Origin: Bacteroidota bacterium
GTDB taxonomy: Bacteria > Bacteroidota > Bacteroidia > Bacteroidales > Tenuifilaceae
Reading direction: 5' to 3'
Length of the DNA: 64,000 nt
Assembly (NCBI GenBank): GCA_029560875.1
Contig: JAKQKB010000235.1
Coordinates: 1 to 64,000, forward strand
Under the pieces are notes generated by a model. That model searched no databases and had not been told where the DNA came from. It worked only from the letters and a program-made list of their open reading frames with translations. The position numbers and the translations under genes were made by a program. Positions 6,468-13,775 of the stretch are shown here, piece after piece; position 1 is the stretch's first letter; each line of letters starts with the position of its first letter.

Positions 6468-6761
6468 TTATAGGCTTAGTTTTTTTGTATCCTTGTGGTT
6501 ATTCCAAAAACGGAGTAGTTCAATTTCGTTACTGCTCTTATGCCTGTAGTATAATGTTATTTGCTTACAAACAACGCATTGCCTTATATTCCTGTAGCCA
6601 CTCTCTTTGAATTCAACTTTTTCGTCTATCAACTCAAAAAGAACAGATTCAACGTCGGATATAAAGTTTAAAGCTTCTTTTTCCGACCATTTTTGTAGAA
6701 GATATTCAATGTTCTGATGGTAATCCTGCAATGCGGTATCAGTCCACACTAATGTCTTCAT
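6468..6761 (-). CDS. ParE/RelE-type toxin, copy 2
   Basis: A 97-residue toxin paralogous to the one at 3055-3348, identical at 90 of 97 positions by my count. The changes are scattered and conservative (for example EYKESG to EFKESG, HKGSN to HKSSN and KLNL to KLSL), with no frameshift. The strand order and the ELLRFWNNHKD C-terminal strand are kept, so it is probably functional. It overlaps its antitoxin by four bases. Together the two modules form direct repeats of about 550 bases, about 3.4 kb apart, flanking the lipoprotein and the small membrane protein. Confidence 0.88.
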   Translation of the reverse strand: MKTLVWTDTALQDYHQNIEYLLQKWSEKEALNFISDVESVLFELIDEKVEFKESGYRNIRQCVVCKQITLYYRHKSSNEIELLRFWNNHKDTKKLSL

Positions 6762-7006
6762 CGGAACAAATTTGGGTACAGCTCCCTCGTTTTTTGCATG
6801 GCACTCTCGTGGCTGTGAACATTCCCCTTTTCGCTTGCCTCAATGGCGGTATCTAAGGCGGCTTTAATTTCTGGCGATAGTGCTTGGTTACTCTTTAATT
6901 CGGCATTAATCAACCCAATAATTTTGGAGTATACATGCTCTAAGTTTTTACTATCGAGGCTATCGAGTCTGCGAAATAAGTCGAGTTTTAGTTCAGCGGC
7001 ATTCAT
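6758..7006 (-). CDS. Antitoxin of the ParE/RelE pair, copy 2
   Basis: An 82-residue partner of the toxin at 6468-6761. An in-frame stop directly before MNAAELKLD fixes the start. It differs from copy 1 at 11 of 82 positions by my count, mostly in the middle (LEHVYSKIIGLINAELKSNQ), while the N-terminus and the ELYPNLFR tail are unchanged. The upstream TAACTTTG box is conserved at 7028-7035. The duplicate may neutralise only its own toxin or both; sequence alone does not say. Confidence 0.85.
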   Translation of the reverse strand: MNAAELKLDLFRRLDSLDSKNLEHVYSKIIGLINAELKSNQALSPEIKAALDTAIEASEKGNVHSHESAMQKTRELYPNLFR

Positions 7007-8244: not shown

Positions 8245-8413
8245 TAGTCAGTATAAAAGTCTTAACTATCCAGCATCGATTTTTGAACTGCAAATGAACA
8301 TCAAAGATTTCAAATATCAAAAGTTATATCATAAAAGATTTAATTTTTAATATTCAGTTTATCAGTGTGTTATGGAATAATTATCCTGTTTTTAAAAATT
8401 ATATATTAAAATA

Positions 8414-8445
8414 ATTGACATATATAAGATAATTATATATATTTG
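8414..8445 (+). promoter_or_regulatory. Promoter of the padR operon
   Basis: TATATTTG at 8438-8445 fits the -7 consensus TAnnTTTG, and TTGA at 8414-8417 is a partial -33 element 20 bases away. Transcription would begin near 8452, upstream of the ATG at 8477. The surrounding sequence is extremely AT-rich. PadR proteins commonly repress their own operon, so an operator is likely here, but no clear dyad stands out. Confidence 0.5.
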
Positions 8446-8476
8446 TTTCATTGATAAATTGAAAAAACATGCAAAT

Positions 8477-8830
8477 ATGATTCAGAACAACTTAATTAAA
8501 GGAACGTTAAACCCAATCATCCTTAAACTTTTATCGGAGAATAAGCGGATGTACGGGTACGAGATTACGCAAAAAGTAAAAGAGTTGACCAATGGTAAAA
8601 TTGAGTTGACCTTTGGTGCACTTTATCCAATTCTGCATAAGTTGGAGCAGGAGGGAGTTGTTAGAACAGAATCGGAGGTGATTAATAACCGAAACAGAAT
8701 TTACTACTCGCTTACCGAAACAGGTAAAAACACTGCAAAGGAGAGGATTGAGGAATTGGAGGATTTTGTGAATACCATAAAGGCTTTGCTTCAACCTAAT
8801 ATGGGATTACAGTATGTACACGTTAAGTAA
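8477..8830 (+). CDS. PadR family transcriptional regulator
   Basis: A 117-residue winged-helix regulator. IQNNLIKGTLNPIILKLL followed by MYGYEITQKVKELT is the classic PadR opening. LTFGALYPILHKLEQEGVV is the recognition helix and wing, with NNRNRIYYSLTETGK after it. A TTG six codons upstream (8459) also keeps the frame; I chose the ATG because it fits the family start. Its last 17 bases overlap the next gene, so the two are translationally linked. PadR genes are often paired with HAAS-domain membrane proteins, and that is what follows here. The ligand and targets are unknown. Confidence 0.92.
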   Translation: MIQNNLIKGTLNPIILKLLSENKRMYGYEITQKVKELTNGKIELTFGALYPILHKLEQEGVVRTESEVINNRNRIYYSLTETGKNTAKERIEELEDFVNTIKALLQPNMGLQYVHVK

Positions 8831-10262
8831 GTGTCAGGTTCAGCAAATTGCTGATGATGTTGAGAATGCGAGGATTACTTTTTCACATCTGTGCGACGAT
8901 TTGATTGACCACATCTGCTGCGAGGTGGAGAACGAAATGTACGAAGGCAAAAGTTTTGATGAGGCCTATGAGATTGTGAAACAACAAACCGGAATCAAAA
9001 CTCTGCAAAAGATTCAGGAAAATACACAGTATTTAATCGATAAAAACTACCGAATTATGAAAATGACAATGAAAATTGCCGGTAATGTGTCGCTTGCATT
9101 GCTGGCATTGGCTACCCTGATGAAAATTCTTCATTTACCGGGTGCAAGTATTTTACTTCTGTTGGGATTTGTGATTTTGGGATTAGTTTTTTTCCCTTCG
9201 GCACTCTATACAAACTATAGAGATTTAGAGGGGCGAAAATCACTAGCACTTCATCTTTCCATATTTATTGGTGGATTGCTGTTTATGTTTGGGGTTTTAT
9301 TTAAGGTACTTCATTGGCCTGGCGCGGGTATGTTGCTAATTATAGGCTGGGTTTTTATTCTGTTTATTTTTCTGCCATTGCTACTTGTTAAGAAGTATCG
9401 CCAATCGGAAACTGCCAAGGATAAATGGATTGTTACTTTGGGTGTTGTTGGTTTGATAATTTTTGAGCTCTCAACAATGTTCAAACTTTTTCATTGGCCG
9501 GGTGCTGCAGTATTAATGATTCTTGGTTCAATTATACTAGTATCGGTGTTTCTACCTTTATTCACTTACTCAAAATTTAAGCAGTTAAAGCAAATTACTG
9601 GCGAGTATATTTTTTTGATAATAGGAACGATGTTTTTTATTCTGTTCAGCGTTTTACTAGCACTTAATGCTTCGAAAGATACCCTAGGAACGCTGGTGAG
9701 CGATGCCAAAAGTTCTGCTGCCATTGTTAATTACCTAGAAGCGAAGAATCAAAAGTTTTACGGCGATTTTGCCAATGCTTCCGATAGTGTTAAGGTTAAA
9801 TATAGTAAACAGGTTGATTTAATTAAGAAGGAAACCCAGAGCTTAGTTTACTTAATAGACAGCATAAAGGTTGAAATAATTGCACTTGCCGAAGGTGTTG
9901 ATAAATCTGCATCAAAACAACTCCTCGGCGACGTAACCCTGATAGGGAATAAGTCGAGCATCGATGCTGTTAGTAAGATAATGACTGGCGAAAAGGGTGC
10001 AGGAGTTTTGCTTAAAAATCAAATCAACCAGTACAAGATAGCTTTGGTTAATGCTTTTCCCGATAATACTAATTTAGCCAATAACATTTCCATTCTTCTG
10101 AATACAAACGCAATTAACGATGGTTCAGCGGTACTAAGTTGGGAGCAAATCAACTTTGATAATCAGATTACAATTGGCGCATTGGCTGTTCTTTCAGATT
10201 TGAAGAAAAGTGTAAGGCTTGTTGAATCGCAAGCCATTGTTATAGTAGGTTTCAATAAGTAA
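8814..10262 (+). CDS. Membrane protein with HAAS-like N-terminus and three GldL-like LHxPGA units
   Basis: A 482-residue protein overlapping padR by 17 bases. Residues 1-60 (LCDDLIDHICCEVENEMYEG, then SFDEAYEIVKQQTG) resemble the HAAS/DUF1700 module that accompanies PadR regulators. Three membrane units then repeat with exact 60-residue spacing: MKILHLPGA (PG near 110), FKVLHWPGA (near 170) and FKLFHWPGA (near 230). Each is followed by a hydrophobic helix ending FFPSALY, FLPLLLV or FLPLFTY. The LHWPGA signature is also found in GldL of the gliding/T9SS motor, though this is not GldL. A final membrane helix leads to a helical domain of about 190 residues, probably on the other side of the membrane. 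Function is unknown. Confidence 0.75.
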   Translation: MYTLSKCQVQQIADDVENARITFSHLCDDLIDHICCEVENEMYEGKSFDEAYEIVKQQTGIKTLQKIQENTQYLIDKNYRIMKMTMKIAGNVSLALLALATLMKILHLPGASILLLLGFVILGLVFFPSALYTNYRDLEGRKSLALHLSIFIGGLLFMFGVLFKVLHWPGAGMLLIIGWVFILFIFLPLLLVKKYRQSETAKDKWIVTLGVVGLIIFELSTMFKLFHWPGAAVLMILGSIILVSVFLPLFTYSKFKQLKQITGEYIFLIIGTMFFILFSVLLALNASKDTLGTLVSDAKSSAAIVNYLEAKNQKFYGDFANASDSVKVKYSKQVDLIKKETQSLVYLIDSIKVEIIALAEGVDKSASKQLLGDVTLIGNKSSIDAVSKIMTGEKGAGVLLKNQINQYKIALVNAFPDNTNLANNISILLNTNAINDGSAVLSWEQINFDNQITIGALAVLSDLKKSVRLVESQAIVIVGFNK

Positions 10263-10287
10263 GTTCAATAACCTAAAATCTAGCAAA

Positions 10288-11229
10288 ATGAAAAAGTTCA
10301 TCTATATATCAGGAATAGTGAGTGCAAATCTTATGTTGTTTGGTTCGCTATTAAAAGTATTGCATATGCCTGGAGCATCAATTCTGCTTTTACTATCAGT
10401 TTTTATGTTCTGTTTTATCTTTCTTCCAATGGCTTTGTATAATAACTATGTAAATCAGGATGAGAAGAAGAGTGCTTGGCTTTACATTGTTACATTCATT
10501 GTTTTCTTCGTATGTATTCTAGGAGCGTTATTTAAGATAATGCATTGGCCAGGAGCCTCCGTTTTCTTAGTTCTTGGAATTCTATCCCCATTTGTGCTGT
10601 TTTTGCCTGTTTATCTTTACCAAACTAGGAAGCCAAAGAGCAAATCGGTTAAGAATAATTTAGCAGTAATGTTTGGTTTAACCTTTTTGGCTGTATTTAA
10701 CGTTTTCCTAGCCGTAAATGTTAGCTCTAATGTGCTTAATAGCGTTGCGTTGGTGGGATATAATCAGGAAGAGTTTGTTAAATCATTGGGTAACAAAAGT
10801 GATGTTTCAACCAAAAGTAGTATAAAACTCAAGGCTTTGGAAATATCGAATTATATAGAAAAGTTAAAGCAGGAGGCAGCTAGTGAAGGCTTAGCAGATA
10901 ACGAGCGAAAAGTGTCCAACTACAGCGCATTAAGCATTGCTGATAAGGGAGCACCTGCTATATCGATATTTGTGAAGAAAGATGCCAATACGAAAAGCCA
11001 AGTGGAGGTTCTTAAAATTCAAATGGATGAGTTTTCGGATATGATTCTAAACAGTGAAAGAATAAGTCCAGAGTTGAAGGAATTAACAAATACCCTGCTT
11101 GTGTTCAATGAGGACGCTCAACTTTGGATTACCAAAGAGTTTCCAATCTATCAGAAGGTTTATGTTTACAATGCACTATGTCGCATACAGAGCAATGTGC
11201 TGTTTGTAGGTTTGGAATGCGCAAATTAA
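10288..11229 (+). CDS. Membrane protein with two GldL-like LHxPGA units
   Basis: A 313-residue paralogue of the second half of the preceding protein, 25 bases downstream and probably in the same operon. It lacks the HAAS-like part and has two 60-residue membrane units, LLKVLHMPGA (near 30) and LFKIMHWPGA (near 90). They are followed by a membrane helix ending in VFLAVNVSSN, which corresponds to VLLALNAS in the partner, and then an extramembrane helical domain of about 160 residues. The shared architecture suggests that the two proteins arose by duplication and act together. The regulator upstream suggests that their level is controlled, but no process can be named. Confidence 0.72.
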   Translation: MKKFIYISGIVSANLMLFGSLLKVLHMPGASILLLLSVFMFCFIFLPMALYNNYVNQDEKKSAWLYIVTFIVFFVCILGALFKIMHWPGASVFLVLGILSPFVLFLPVYLYQTRKPKSKSVKNNLAVMFGLTFLAVFNVFLAVNVSSNVLNSVALVGYNQEEFVKSLGNKSDVSTKSSIKLKALEISNYIEKLKQEAASEGLADNERKVSNYSALSIADKGAPAISIFVKKDANTKSQVEVLKIQMDEFSDMILNSERISPELKELTNTLLVFNEDAQLWITKEFPIYQKVYVYNALCRIQSNVLFVGLECAN

Positions 11230-11394: not shown

Positions 11395-12150
11395 TTACCT
11401 CTCCAACCACTCCTTAAACCCCGATACGCGCTCGCGGCTTACAATTATATCCTCGTCAGTTTTTACGGTTGGAACAATTTTTAGGCGACTGTTGGAGTAA
11501 GCCACAATATCGCGAATGGAGTTTATTCCAATAATACAGCTGCGGTTAACGCGGTAAAATTCCGATGGATTTACAACCAGTTCAATTTGGTCGAGTGTTT
11601 GGTCAATGGCGTAGTCGCGCCCCTCGGTGTTGCGTATGAAAGTAGATTTTTCCATGCTATGAAAAAAGGCAATATCGCTGCAGTTAATCATCTTAAGGTG
11701 CTCGCCAACCTTTACCAAAAACCTGGATTTATAGTTGTTGCTTAGCTGGTTTATCAGCGTTGTAATTTGGCTTGAATCAATGGTTGTAGCGGTGTTTCTG
11801 GTGTTTTCAAATTTATCGATAGCCGTTTTTAGCTCATTCTCATTCACTGGCTTAAGCAGATAATCGATACTGTTAACCTTGAAAGCCTTAAGCGCATACT
11901 CGTTATATGCAGTGGTGAATATTACCGGAAAATCGATTTTCACCTGCTCAAAAATCTCGAAGCTAATGCCATCGGCCAGCTGAATATCGAAAAAAGCAAG
12001 TTGAGGATGAGGATTCTGTTTCAGCCATTTAACTGCCGATGATACAGAATCAAACACTGCAAGTAAATTGTAATCTGGTCGAATGGAATTGACCATTTTA
12101 GCAAGGCTATCTGCTGTTAAGCGCTCATCTTCAACAATTAAATACTTCAT
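11395..12150 (-). CDS. LytTR family response regulator
   Basis: A 251-residue cytoplasmic two-component regulator. The receiver domain (about 1-120) has the acidic pair VEDE, the phospho-acceptor Asp in FFDIQLADG, TTAYNEYALKAF and the lysine in DYLLKPV. The LytTR DNA-binding domain (about 145-251) includes FYRVNRSCIIGINSI, a typical core. It is the last gene of a tight block, kinase (12735-13775) to methyltransferase-like gene (12166-12723) to this gene, with gaps of 11 and 15 bases. It is presumably phosphorylated by that kinase. Direct targets are unknown; the TonB receptor block upstream is a reasonable candidate. Confidence 0.93.
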   Translation of the reverse strand: MKYLIVEDERLTADSLAKMVNSIRPDYNLLAVFDSVSSAVKWLKQNPHPQLAFFDIQLADGISFEIFEQVKIDFPVIFTTAYNEYALKAFKVNSIDYLLKPVNENELKTAIDKFENTRNTATTIDSSQITTLINQLSNNYKSRFLVKVGEHLKMINCSDIAFFHSMEKSTFIRNTEGRDYAIDQTLDQIELVVNPSEFYRVNRSCIIGINSIRDIVAYSNSRLKIVPTVKTDEDIIVSRERVSGFKEWLER

Positions 12151-12165
12151 TGGTTAGAACTATTT

Positions 12166-12723
12166 TTAAATTAATCCTGGAATTAGTTTCTTAGTGTTCT
12201 TCTTGTAATTTGAATACTCATCTCCAAATTCTGTGAGTAGAATTTCCTCTTCAACCTTAATTCTGTAGAGAATAGCAAGAAACATTGGAATTGTAATGAT
12301 CAAAATAGAGATATAACTATTCATACTAACAGAGAACCCAAACATTATAAACAAGAGTCCAAAATAACTGGGGTGACGAACATACTTGTAAACCCCATCG
12401 GTTTTAAGTTTATGGTTGTTTGCAATGGCCACATTAACTGTAAAAGCACTACTTAGCTGAATGATTGAAATCCAACGAATAGTTGCACCTAAAAGAATTA
12501 TAGTGACTCCAGCAAAAGCAACGACATAATTAAAGAGGGTCCAGATTCTATAGTTTGCAAAAGTAAATCCGAATGTAAAGCATAGGGTGATGATTACCCA
12601 AAGTAAAACTAAAGAACCTTTGTCGTTTTTACGCTTCGAATCAATTTTTTTTGAACGTTTAACAAGCATCAAGGCAAATTCTGAAAGAAAAAATAGTATC
12701 GATAGTAATATTAAGTATTTCAT
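12166..12723 (-). CDS. Isoprenylcysteine carboxyl methyltransferase (ICMT)-like membrane protein
   Basis: A 185-residue polytopic membrane protein. The C-terminal half carries the PEMT/ICMT S-adenosylmethionine-site pattern: DGVYKYVRHPSYFGLLFIMF, then a VEEEILLTEFGDEYSNYKKN stretch and LIPGLI at the end. Four or five hydrophobic segments are visible. Bacterial relatives methylate small lipids or lipid-like substrates, but most have no known substrate. It sits between the histidine kinase and its response regulator with gaps of 11 and 15 bases. This is an unusual insertion in a two-component operon and hints at a role in the signal pathway or its output. Confidence 0.85.
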   Translation of the reverse strand: MKYLILLSILFFLSEFALMLVKRSKKIDSKRKNDKGSLVLLWVIITLCFTFGFTFANYRIWTLFNYVVAFAGVTIILLGATIRWISIIQLSSAFTVNVAIANNHKLKTDGVYKYVRHPSYFGLLFIMFGFSVSMNSYISILIITIPMFLAILYRIKVEEEILLTEFGDEYSNYKKNTKKLIPGLI

Positions 12724-12734
12724 TTTTCTTTGTA

Positions 12735-13775
12735 TTAAGAAATGGATTTAACAATAGGAATTTTTACTGTAAAGTAATTCTCATCCTGATCAATTTCCAT
12801 AGGATGTTGAGAAATGTACTCGTATCTTTTGCTAATAGTTTCGAGCCCTATTCCGTTTGAGTCCTGAATAATTCTACGTTTTTGTAGGTTGTTTTGAACT
12901 ACTATAAAATTGTTTTCCCTCCATAGTTTTACAGTTAGAGGTTTTTCCTCTGATATTATGTTATGCTTAAAGCAATTTTCCAAAAGGGTTTGAAGGGAGA
13001 GAGGAATGATGAAGCCCGAAAAGTCAGTAATATCGATATGTATTTTTAAACTCTCCCCGTGGCGCATTTGGTGAAGATTGATGTAAGATTTTATAAACCG
13101 TATTTCTTCGTCCAAGGGAACCAATTCCTTATCTTTTTGGTCGAGCACGTAACGGTAAATATTAGAAAATTGTTGAATGAAAAGCTTTGCTTTTGCCGTA
13201 TCGGTATCGACCAATGAGCTTAGTACGCTTAAACTATTGAAAAGAAAGTGTGGATTAACTTGACTTTTAAGTGCGTCGTAGCGTAATTGAATGGCTTCTT
13301 GCTTCAATTTTTCCTCATTTATTGCCGATATTCGCCACCATTTAAAGAAATAGGCTAGGTAAAAGCTAGTGGTAATGACTAATGAGATTAAAAAAGTAAT
13401 AACCATTTGCGAAATCCAACGTCCTAGATTATCGAAAATATTTATATTGAAAACGAAGTGTAAAAAGAGATAATTAATTGTAATAATGGCAAGAACAGTG
13501 TAAATAACCGAAAATATAGAGTTTAAAGTAAAAGTAAGTTTAGGATTTTTTTTCCATGGGAAATACAAATTTCCTAGCCATCCAATAAACTGATTTCCTT
13601 TCCAAAGAGAATAACCTATAGAGAAACCATACAGAAGATTTTTATATGCCGTGCTAAAATTTGTAAATAAGTAATTGCCTGCAAAAATGTAAGTTATTAA
13701 TGCACTAAAAAAAAGTGTTATTAAAACATCTTTGCATTCGCGAAGTGATATGCGAATAATTTCCTTTGAGTTCAT
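12735..13775 (-). CDS. LytS/YehU-type sensor histidine kinase
   Basis: A 346-residue membrane kinase with about four N-terminal membrane segments (to about residue 155) and no obvious periplasmic sensor domain. The cytoplasmic part holds the His_kinase motif, ALKSQVNPHFLFNSLSVLS with the phospho-accepting His, then LPLDEEIRFIKSYINLHQMR-like sequence and the ATP-binding LLENCFKHN (N box) and GIGLETISKRYEYI (G box). The signal is probably sensed in the membrane or through a partner. The TPR-like protein and TonB receptor encoded upstream on the same strand are candidates. Confidence 0.92.
   Translation of the reverse strand: MNSKEIIRISLRECKDVLITLFFSALITYIFAGNYLFTNFSTAYKNLLYGFSIGYSLWKGNQFIGWLGNLYFPWKKNPKLTFTLNSIFSVIYTVLAIITINYLFLHFVFNINIFDNLGRWISQMVITFLISLVITTSFYLAYFFKWWRISAINEEKLKQEAIQLRYDALKSQVNPHFLFNSLSVLSSLVDTDTAKAKLFIQQFSNIYRYVLDQKDKELVPLDEEIRFIKSYINLHQMRHGESLKIHIDITDFSGFIIPLSLQTLLENCFKHNIISEEKPLTVKLWRENNFIVVQNNLQKRRIIQDSNGIGLETISKRYEYISQHPMEIDQDENYFTVKIPIVKSIS

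Follow-up and report, generated by a model that had tools for sequence, protein, structure and literature searches.

Among the closest described systems are the motors of gliding and of the type IX secretion system (T9SS), GldLM and PorLM, for which a composition of five GldL to two GldM chains is reported (PMC9389320); GldL contributes a two-helix wheel unit, and GldM an axle helix followed by a periplasmic D1 domain. In Flavobacterium johnsoniae, Glu49 in the second transmembrane helix (TM2) of GldL is described as essential, strictly conserved and needed for use of the proton gradient (PMC8986121). The present analysis concerns a three-gene unit, padR-ORF1-ORF2 (ORF, open reading frame), on contig JAKQKB010000235.1 of a Bacteroidota bacterium of the Tenuifilaceae (assembly GCA_029560875.1), within a stretch of 64,000 nucleotides (nt) that is referred to below as the window. 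ORF1 and ORF2 are fused and rearranged relatives of GldL and GldM; summed at the gene level, they hold five wheel units and two axles, the same 5:2 ratio as in the T9SS/gliding motor. Residues on which the motor depends are gone from both proteins, and we put at little better than an even chance the reading that their products constitute a motor-derived, probably non-motor membrane sensor, a 5:2 complex made from two chains, that controls the co-encoded regulator PadR.

An earlier note on this DNA had described two proteins of 482 and 313 residues with three and two repeats of an LHxPGA motif, 60 residues apart, and had likened the motif to one in GldL. Both reading frames and their repeats are present as described; the motif histidines stand at residues 107, 167 and 227 of ORF1 and at residues 26 and 86 of ORF2, exactly 60 apart, and the likeness to GldL proves to be one of whole hairpins. 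Pfam recognises GldL_N in ORF1 (E = 1.9e-11, three stretches) and in ORF2 (E = 2.6e-15, two stretches), independently of the hidden Markov model (HMM) of the unit, and the alignment of the units with each other and with GldL runs beyond the six-residue motif over some 50 residues. The unit HMM matches all five window units at 5e-23 to 6e-20, a match that is not independent because the model was seeded with these same units. Across the 34 related loci introduced below (window included), the spacing of the units is 60 residues in 50 of 60 ORF1 intervals (58 in eight, 63 in two) and in 20 of 27 ORF2 intervals (59 in seven). Pfam GldL_N is found in 29/29 proteins of the family (26 ORF1 and three single-gene) and in 25/25 ORF2 proteins. 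By homology, then, each 60-residue unit is a GldL_N hairpin with the KxxH-PGA loop of GldL/PorL, and GldL chains of the PDB are matched; GldL/PorL have one hairpin per chain, and these proteins have three or two. NCBIfam equivalog scores are far below their cut-offs (GldM, 56.5 versus 180 bits; GldL, 28.6 and 34.9 versus 68.3 bits), so ORF1 and ORF2 are relatives of GldL and GldM and not the canonical proteins. The canonical gldL and gldM of this genome (at about 95-97 kb) and its gldN lie on another contig, C123; ORF1 and ORF2 stand outside a gldKLMN neighbourhood and, as had been remarked before, no gliding-motor genes are seen near the locus.

The earlier note overlooked the N-terminal domain of GldM, which follows the repeats in both proteins. 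In ORF1, Pfam GldM_1st covers residues 307-475 (E = 2.6e-18); the window ORF2 has no Pfam GldM match, and its GldM domain is seen by profile and fold. GldM_1st is found at E <= 0.1 in 23 of 29 proteins (again 26 ORF1 and three single-gene) and in 15 of 25 ORF2 proteins, and an HMM of canonical GldM matches 22/30 ORF1 and 21/27 ORF2 proteins at E <= 1e-3. Profile-profile alignment (hhalign) of the C-terminal sets to canonical GldM gave Prob 99.85 for ORF1 (27 sequences), 99.74 for ORF2 (25) and 99.22 for single-gene relatives (28), against Prob 0.4 for the N-terminal module of ORF1 used as an unrelated control. A PDB profile search returned 12 distinct sequences for each ORF at E <= 0.1, all of them GldM/PorM (eight) or GldL/PorL (four); the motor entries among these hold two GldM and five GldL chains. 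AlphaFold2 models show three helical hairpins, a long helix and a helical domain for ORF1 (mean pLDDT 86.7, pTM 0.54, alignment of 29 rows), and two hairpins, a long helix and a helical domain for ORF2 (mean pLDDT 79.4, pTM 0.56, 25 rows). Searched with Foldseek, the ORF1 model has GldM/PorM chains at ranks 1-18 (best E = 1.2e-6); for the ORF2 model such chains fill ranks 1-12, with 8.3e-3 as the best E-value and thus no match at E <= 0.001. VIA-align superposes ORF1 on PorM 7cmg_A with Z = 23.8 and a root-mean-square deviation of 1.6 over 183 residues; for ORF2, the same chain gives Z = 16.5 and 2.8 over 157 residues (positions 147-313), and 7sat_B gives Z = 15.6 over residues 117-313. The tails thus have the transmembrane helix and periplasmic D1 fold of GldM/PorM and are best assigned, from profiles and models, as a GldM-type axle helix plus D1; both chains stop after D1, short of the D2-D4 shaft of GldM.

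The number of units per gene is conserved. A collection of genomes from 84,980 species, scanned with a query (A3) made of the N-terminal module of ORF1 (N-module below) and two units, yielded 33 loci, all in Bacteroidota records of metagenome-assembled genomes, or 34 with the window. ORF1 has exactly three units in 30 of these 34 loci; ORF2 adjoins it in 27 of the 30 and always has exactly two units, an observation that is independent since ORF2 was absent from the scan query. Locus L169 is a 28th example, which brings the 3+2 arrangement to 28/28 loci with both genes. No single-chain fusion of five units was seen among the loci read, no dedicated search having been made. Three loci have a three-unit ORF1 without ORF2, two of them (L046 and L049) cut by the contig end, and the remaining four of the 34 (L062-L065) carry a single gene with two units. 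A tail of more than 120 residues follows the units in 27/30 ORF1 and 25/27 ORF2 proteins. HMMs of the five positions, built from one half of the loci, placed 140 of the 144 units held out in their own position (29/30, 29/30 and 28/30 in ORF1; 27/27 and 27/27 in ORF2), so the five positions are separate and old lineages. Identity to the window proteins falls as low as 28% for ORF1 and 23% for ORF2. In a quick-method tree of 104 GldM-like domain rows (24 of 48 canonical GldM rows used), canonical GldM (support 99), a single-gene clade (96) and a two-gene clade (96) are set apart; within the last, ORF1 and ORF2 form largely separate groups with matching subclades and a weakly supported base (86 and 80), with L052 (both genes), L059 (its ORF1) and the single genes of L062-L064 as exceptions.

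The second constant of the locus is its regulator. The padR product belongs to the PadR winged-helix family (Pfam PF03551, E = 1.7e-20, 73.2 bits versus a cut-off of 27), and its gene overlaps ORF1, as the earlier note had it, by 17 nt; 25 nt separate ORF1 from ORF2. A whole PadR gene stands directly upstream of ORF1 in 33/34 loci, and in L042, the remaining locus, the tail of a PadR-like frame can be made out by eye before the contig breaks off, so the neighbour named in that note is indeed conserved in related genomes. Every other neighbour family is confined to four or fewer of the 34 loci, whose flanks are of unequal length, and padR-ORF1-ORF2 is therefore the conserved unit.

The N-module of ORF1 (AlphaFold2 helices 6-18, 24-43, 48-58 and 61-75) had been called HAAS-like, a claim that is supported by context and not by sequence. 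HAAS (PF22564) is not among the five Pfam families that match ORF1 at E <= 1, profile-profile comparison with ten HAAS sequences from relatives gives Prob 0.1-2.3, and the GxP motif described for HAAS helix 3 (PMC11237479) is missing, the consensus there being GIKxLxxIQ; membership of HAAS is not supported by sequence. None of the fold matches listed covers the N-module, which is uninformative either way. As to context, a stand-alone PadR is next door and the module is N-terminal to multi-transmembrane domains; the same N-module is fused to MacB/FtsX beside PadR in L172 and L173 (E = 4e-20 and 9e-18), an architecture reported for HAAS (PMC11237479). The N-module is accordingly named here HAAS-like by context and is not filed as HAAS.

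The proton-motor residues are missing throughout. In a pool of 206 units, none has Glu at the position of GldL Glu49 (one unit has a gap there); most have Leu, Ile or Phe, and the second unit of ORF2 has Pro in 27/27 proteins. The pool is without L067 (the 3+2 locus that is also numbered L169) and the two L082 proteins, and L059 and L062-L065, part of the first batch and left out of the second, are counted once. Canonical GldLs, picked by the unit HMM with no use made of Glu, have it in 46/46; six of 52 ORFs (L013, L019, two in L026 and two in L027) were excluded from this set as non-canonical GldL. An acidic residue anywhere in TM2 occurs in 2/206 units; in the first transmembrane helix (TM1) one occurs in 11/30 third units of ORF1 and in 2/27 first and 5/27 second units of ORF2. 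The Arg that precedes the helix of canonical GldM is absent from 80/80 axles; its presence in 48/48 canonical GldM is a circular control, as those sequences were chosen by a motif containing that residue. We take this Arg, together with the two GldL loop residues Lys and His, to be the equivalents of Arg9, Lys27 and His30 of F. johnsoniae. With Glu and Arg gone and no other conserved acidic residue in the helices, the complex proposed for ORF1 and ORF2 is, judging from sequence, probably no proton motor.

The same membrane module recurs with other outputs. Among 295 genomes of the class, 94 match the A3 profile (N-module/unit) at E <= 1e-8, some of them partially or by hairpins alone, and 48 further loci have the single-gene form, PadR followed by an N-module with two units. 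PadR is present in 26 of the 28 single-gene loci L068-L095 (L090 ends too early, and none was found in L081) and in all 20 of L136-L155, where a GldM-type tail is recognised in 17. Four proteins (L159-L162) combine two units, the GldM domain, one more helix and a SpoIIE phosphatase in one chain; Pfam identifies SpoIIE in L159, L161 and L162, with which L160 aligns over its full length, and the seven units read in these proteins also lack Glu. The membrane part of the fusions is matched at E <= 1e-100 in 6/295 class genomes, a count that includes the four query sources, for whose proteins SpoIIE is established.

Further arrangements were noted in passing. L216:1685-3826 is listed as the same GldL-GldM-SpoIIE type, the Pfam scan having covered L159, L161 and L162, and L158:3683-5044 has two GldL units joined straight to SpoIIE, with D1 not recognised, and is divergent from a PadR/N-module/two-unit gene. 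Stand-alone two-hairpin GldL-type proteins of 144 residues without a GldM part are encoded at L175:2276-2710 and L019:1504-1938, and small matches of this kind occur in other class genomes. In L163-L168, PadR is followed by short proteins (195-229 residues) with the N-module and one or two GldL units and without a GldM domain. L156:2825-4498 has PadR, an N-module, one recognised unit and the first and second GldM domains, so that more of the GldM shaft is retained. L215:1499-2794, in genome G045, encodes a divergent protein of 431 residues with a GldM-like tail, two HMM units (one weak) and, by eye, a possible third; PadR was not seen beside it.

That a single membrane module serves two kinds of regulatory output, as would be expected of a sensor, and that the proton residues are lost lead us to prefer sensing over force generation. 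ORF1 and ORF2 would most likely pair one to one, giving a pseudo-5:2 complex that resembles GldL5GldM2, with 12 transmembrane helices. Its pair of periplasmic D1 domains may sense the state of the envelope or a partner; the axle would then shift within the wheel and pass the signal inward, where the cytoplasmic N-module, placed ahead of wheel unit 1, would bind or release the co-encoded PadR. PadR in turn would control transcription, its own operon probably being one of several targets, a direction of control that we infer. A more specific version, in which a 5:2 motor has turned receptor, with two obligate partner chains, fixed non-equivalent positions, an axle-in-wheel signal to a PadR repressor and several outputs, is more tentative, and we would place it somewhat short of an even chance.

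Several observations weigh against a 5:2 sensor. Few genomes have the 3+2 form: among 395 of the Bacteroidota, ORF2 is matched at E <= 1e-25 in the window's own genome alone, the sole other match at that threshold being one single-gene protein, so descent from a single origin may account for part of the strict conservation. Locus L059 has a three-unit ORF1 with room downstream and no adjoining ORF2; a search of its genome returned ORF1 itself, canonical gldM and gldL, and an unlinked protein of 266 residues with two GldL units (L224:2470-3270), in which a GldM-like tail or D1 was not recognised and which is a possible partner of this ORF1. The commoner relative is one gene with two units and one axle, of which a homodimer would be 4:2, and L151 has two adjacent two-unit genes; as the wider family is mostly 2+1 per chain, a 4:2 or other assembly must serve there, and five is no rule family-wide. 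The GldM signal is weak in some members, 8/30 ORF1 and 6/27 ORF2 proteins falling below E = 1e-3 (some of these truncated), and the N-module has neither the Pfam match nor the GxP motif of HAAS. Finally, the GldL loop is retained, with Lys in 194/206 units (Arg in ten) and His in 202/206, and some ion-related role is still conceivable.

One rival explanation is that the sum of five is accidental, the outcome of one old duplication, with ORF1 and ORF2 acting as separate proteins (for example homodimers) like their single-gene relatives. The gap at L059 and the far greater frequency of two-unit single-gene relatives (28/28 loci in L068-L095 and 20/20 in L136-L155, none with three) are what it would lead one to expect; it sits poorly with a 3+2 count held constant in every two-gene locus despite the divergence of the proteins, with the adjacency of the genes and with ORF1 and ORF2 subclades that match each other, and we regard it as unlikely. 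Also unlikely is a role as modulators of the canonical T9SS/gliding motor: ORF1 and ORF2 would co-assemble with GldL and GldM, or compete with them, and act as a brake or an assembly factor whose dose is set by PadR. A partner would nearly always be available, given gldL, gldM and gldN on C123 and, at E <= 1e-30, canonical GldM in at least 273/295 class genomes (a minimum, G045 having been scored as without GldM despite a split match over the cut-off). An argument for independence from the T9SS drawn from GldM-less genomes was dropped when GldM and GldN of G045 were found over the cut-offs on a looser search; with canonical GldM in almost every genome sampled, co-occurrence does not tell whether the fused proteins are a sensor in their own right or modulate the canonical motor. 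What speaks against modulation is that the units at the five positions differ from one another and have diverged from GldL, that the 3+2 set is complete by itself, and that the SpoIIE fusion and the PadR-linked modules point to signalling. A motor still driven by ions, conducted by another route and doing mechanical work in the envelope while PadR regulates only expression, could claim the overall 5:2 composition, the retained loop and the scattered TM1 acids, and is improbable when the Glu reported as essential and strictly conserved in GldL (PMC8986121) is lost from every pooled unit and replaced by Pro in one position, when just two units have a TM2 acid and every axle has lost its Arg, and when chains that end after D1 are without the 18-nm shaft of GldM (PMC9389320).

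Features of the padR-ORF1-ORF2 locus (window positions) and of the SpoIIE fusions (positions within the locus named)
Feature	Positions	Strand	Remarks
AT-rich stretch upstream of padR	8411..8445	+	imperfect 13-nt inverted repeat 8411-8423/8424-8436
padR, PadR-family winged-helix regulator	8477..8830	+	ATG start; alternative TTG start at 8459
ORF1, 482 aa (amino acids): N-module + 3 GldL units + GldM helix + D1	8814..10262	+	
ORF1 residues 1-76, PadR-associated four-helix N-module	8814..9041	+	HAAS-like by context alone
ORF1 GldL unit 1, residues 77-137	9042..9224	+	unit HMM 6e-21; AlphaFold2 hairpin 77-105/111-137
ORF1 GldL unit 2, residues 144-197	9243..9404	+	unit HMM 3e-20; AlphaFold2 hairpin 144-165/171-197
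ORF1 GldL unit 3, residues 201-258	9414..9587	+	unit HMM 6e-20; AlphaFold2 hairpin 201-225/231-258
ORF1 GldM-type axle helix + periplasmic D1, residues 263-482	9600..10259	+	Pfam GldM_1st; PorM 7cmg_A
ORF2, 313 aa: 2 GldL units + GldM helix + D1	10288..11229	+	
ORF2 GldL unit 1, residues 2-56	10291..10455	+	unit HMM 2e-20; AlphaFold2 hairpin 2-24/30-56
ORF2 GldL unit 2, residues 60-113	10465..10626	+	unit HMM 5e-23; AlphaFold2 hairpin 60-85/90-113
ORF2 GldM-type axle helix + D1, residues 120-313	10645..11226	+	hhalign; PorM 7cmg_A, 7sat_B
GldL units + GldM D1 + SpoIIE	L159:298-2445		
GldL units + GldM D1 + SpoIIE	L160:2746-4899		
GldL units + GldM D1 + SpoIIE	L161:908-3184		
GldL units + GldM D1 + SpoIIE	L162:946-3012		

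The AT-rich stretch ahead of padR contains what we take, without a chance control, to be promoter-like elements, TTGACA (8415-8420) and TAtaTTTG (8438-8445); as a candidate promoter and operator of padR, the stretch is a lead. Convergent to ORF2, the minus strand at 11395-13775 encodes a LytTR response regulator, an ICMT-like methyltransferase and a histidine kinase (PF06580). Flanking laccase-domain and LytTR genes were considered as functional neighbours and set aside as local synteny, being present in 3/34 loci (the window and two close relatives). On the other side of the locus, the minus strand at 6468-7006 carries a pair of small ORFs (97 and 82 residues) that overlap and give the impression of a ParE/RelE-type toxin-antitoxin pair.

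The family had been put forward as a GldL-like repeat family under PadR control and possibly an undescribed envelope system. No description of it turned up in the literature searched, and text searches, by which the subscription literature is mostly uncovered, found no paper on GldL-GldM fusions or on PadR-linked or SpoIIE-linked GldL; "GldL-like" is too narrow a term for what is a family of fused GldL-GldM proteins. If the sensor reading is true, this would be, as far as the literature searched shows, the first case in which a wheel-and-axle motor lives on as a scaffold after giving up its motor function; Bacteroidota would reuse a motor-derived module with several outputs (PadR/N-module and SpoIIE), a class of motor-scaffold signal transduction absent from that literature, and an unannotated sensor module would be added to their envelope signalling. 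The 3+2 gene layout also offers a genetic handle on subunit count and asymmetry in 5:2 complexes, as the five wheel positions are open to mutation one at a time, unlike those of homopentameric motors.

Among known systems, MotAB and ExbBD (PMC9389320) share the wheel-and-axle membrane plan but are built from separate chains and have ion-carrying acid residues; no MotAB or ExbBD chains are among the PDB profile search matches of ORF1 and ORF2. The HAAS-PadR dyad (PMC11237479) is a further parallel: there, too, a small helical cytoplasmic module is N-terminal on a multi-transmembrane protein encoded directly behind a stand-alone PadR, and the MacB/FtsX fusion beside PadR in L172 and L173 is among the architectures listed for HAAS; the N-module differs in its sequence, as described above, and the main text of that paper mentions GldL and GldM zero times. 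With GldLM and PorLM, the wheel hairpin, the axle helix and D1 are shared according to Pfam, profile-profile alignment, PDB profile search and fold; counted over the genes, the sum is again five wheel units and two axles. By comparison with these motors, ORF1 and ORF2 are without Glu49, Arg9, the D2-D4 domains of GldM and the cytoplasmic tail of GldL, and score below the NCBIfam equivalog cut-offs; outside the gldKLMN cluster and with a PadR of their own, they fuse GldL and GldM into two chains, one of three wheel units and an axle and one of two wheel units and an axle.

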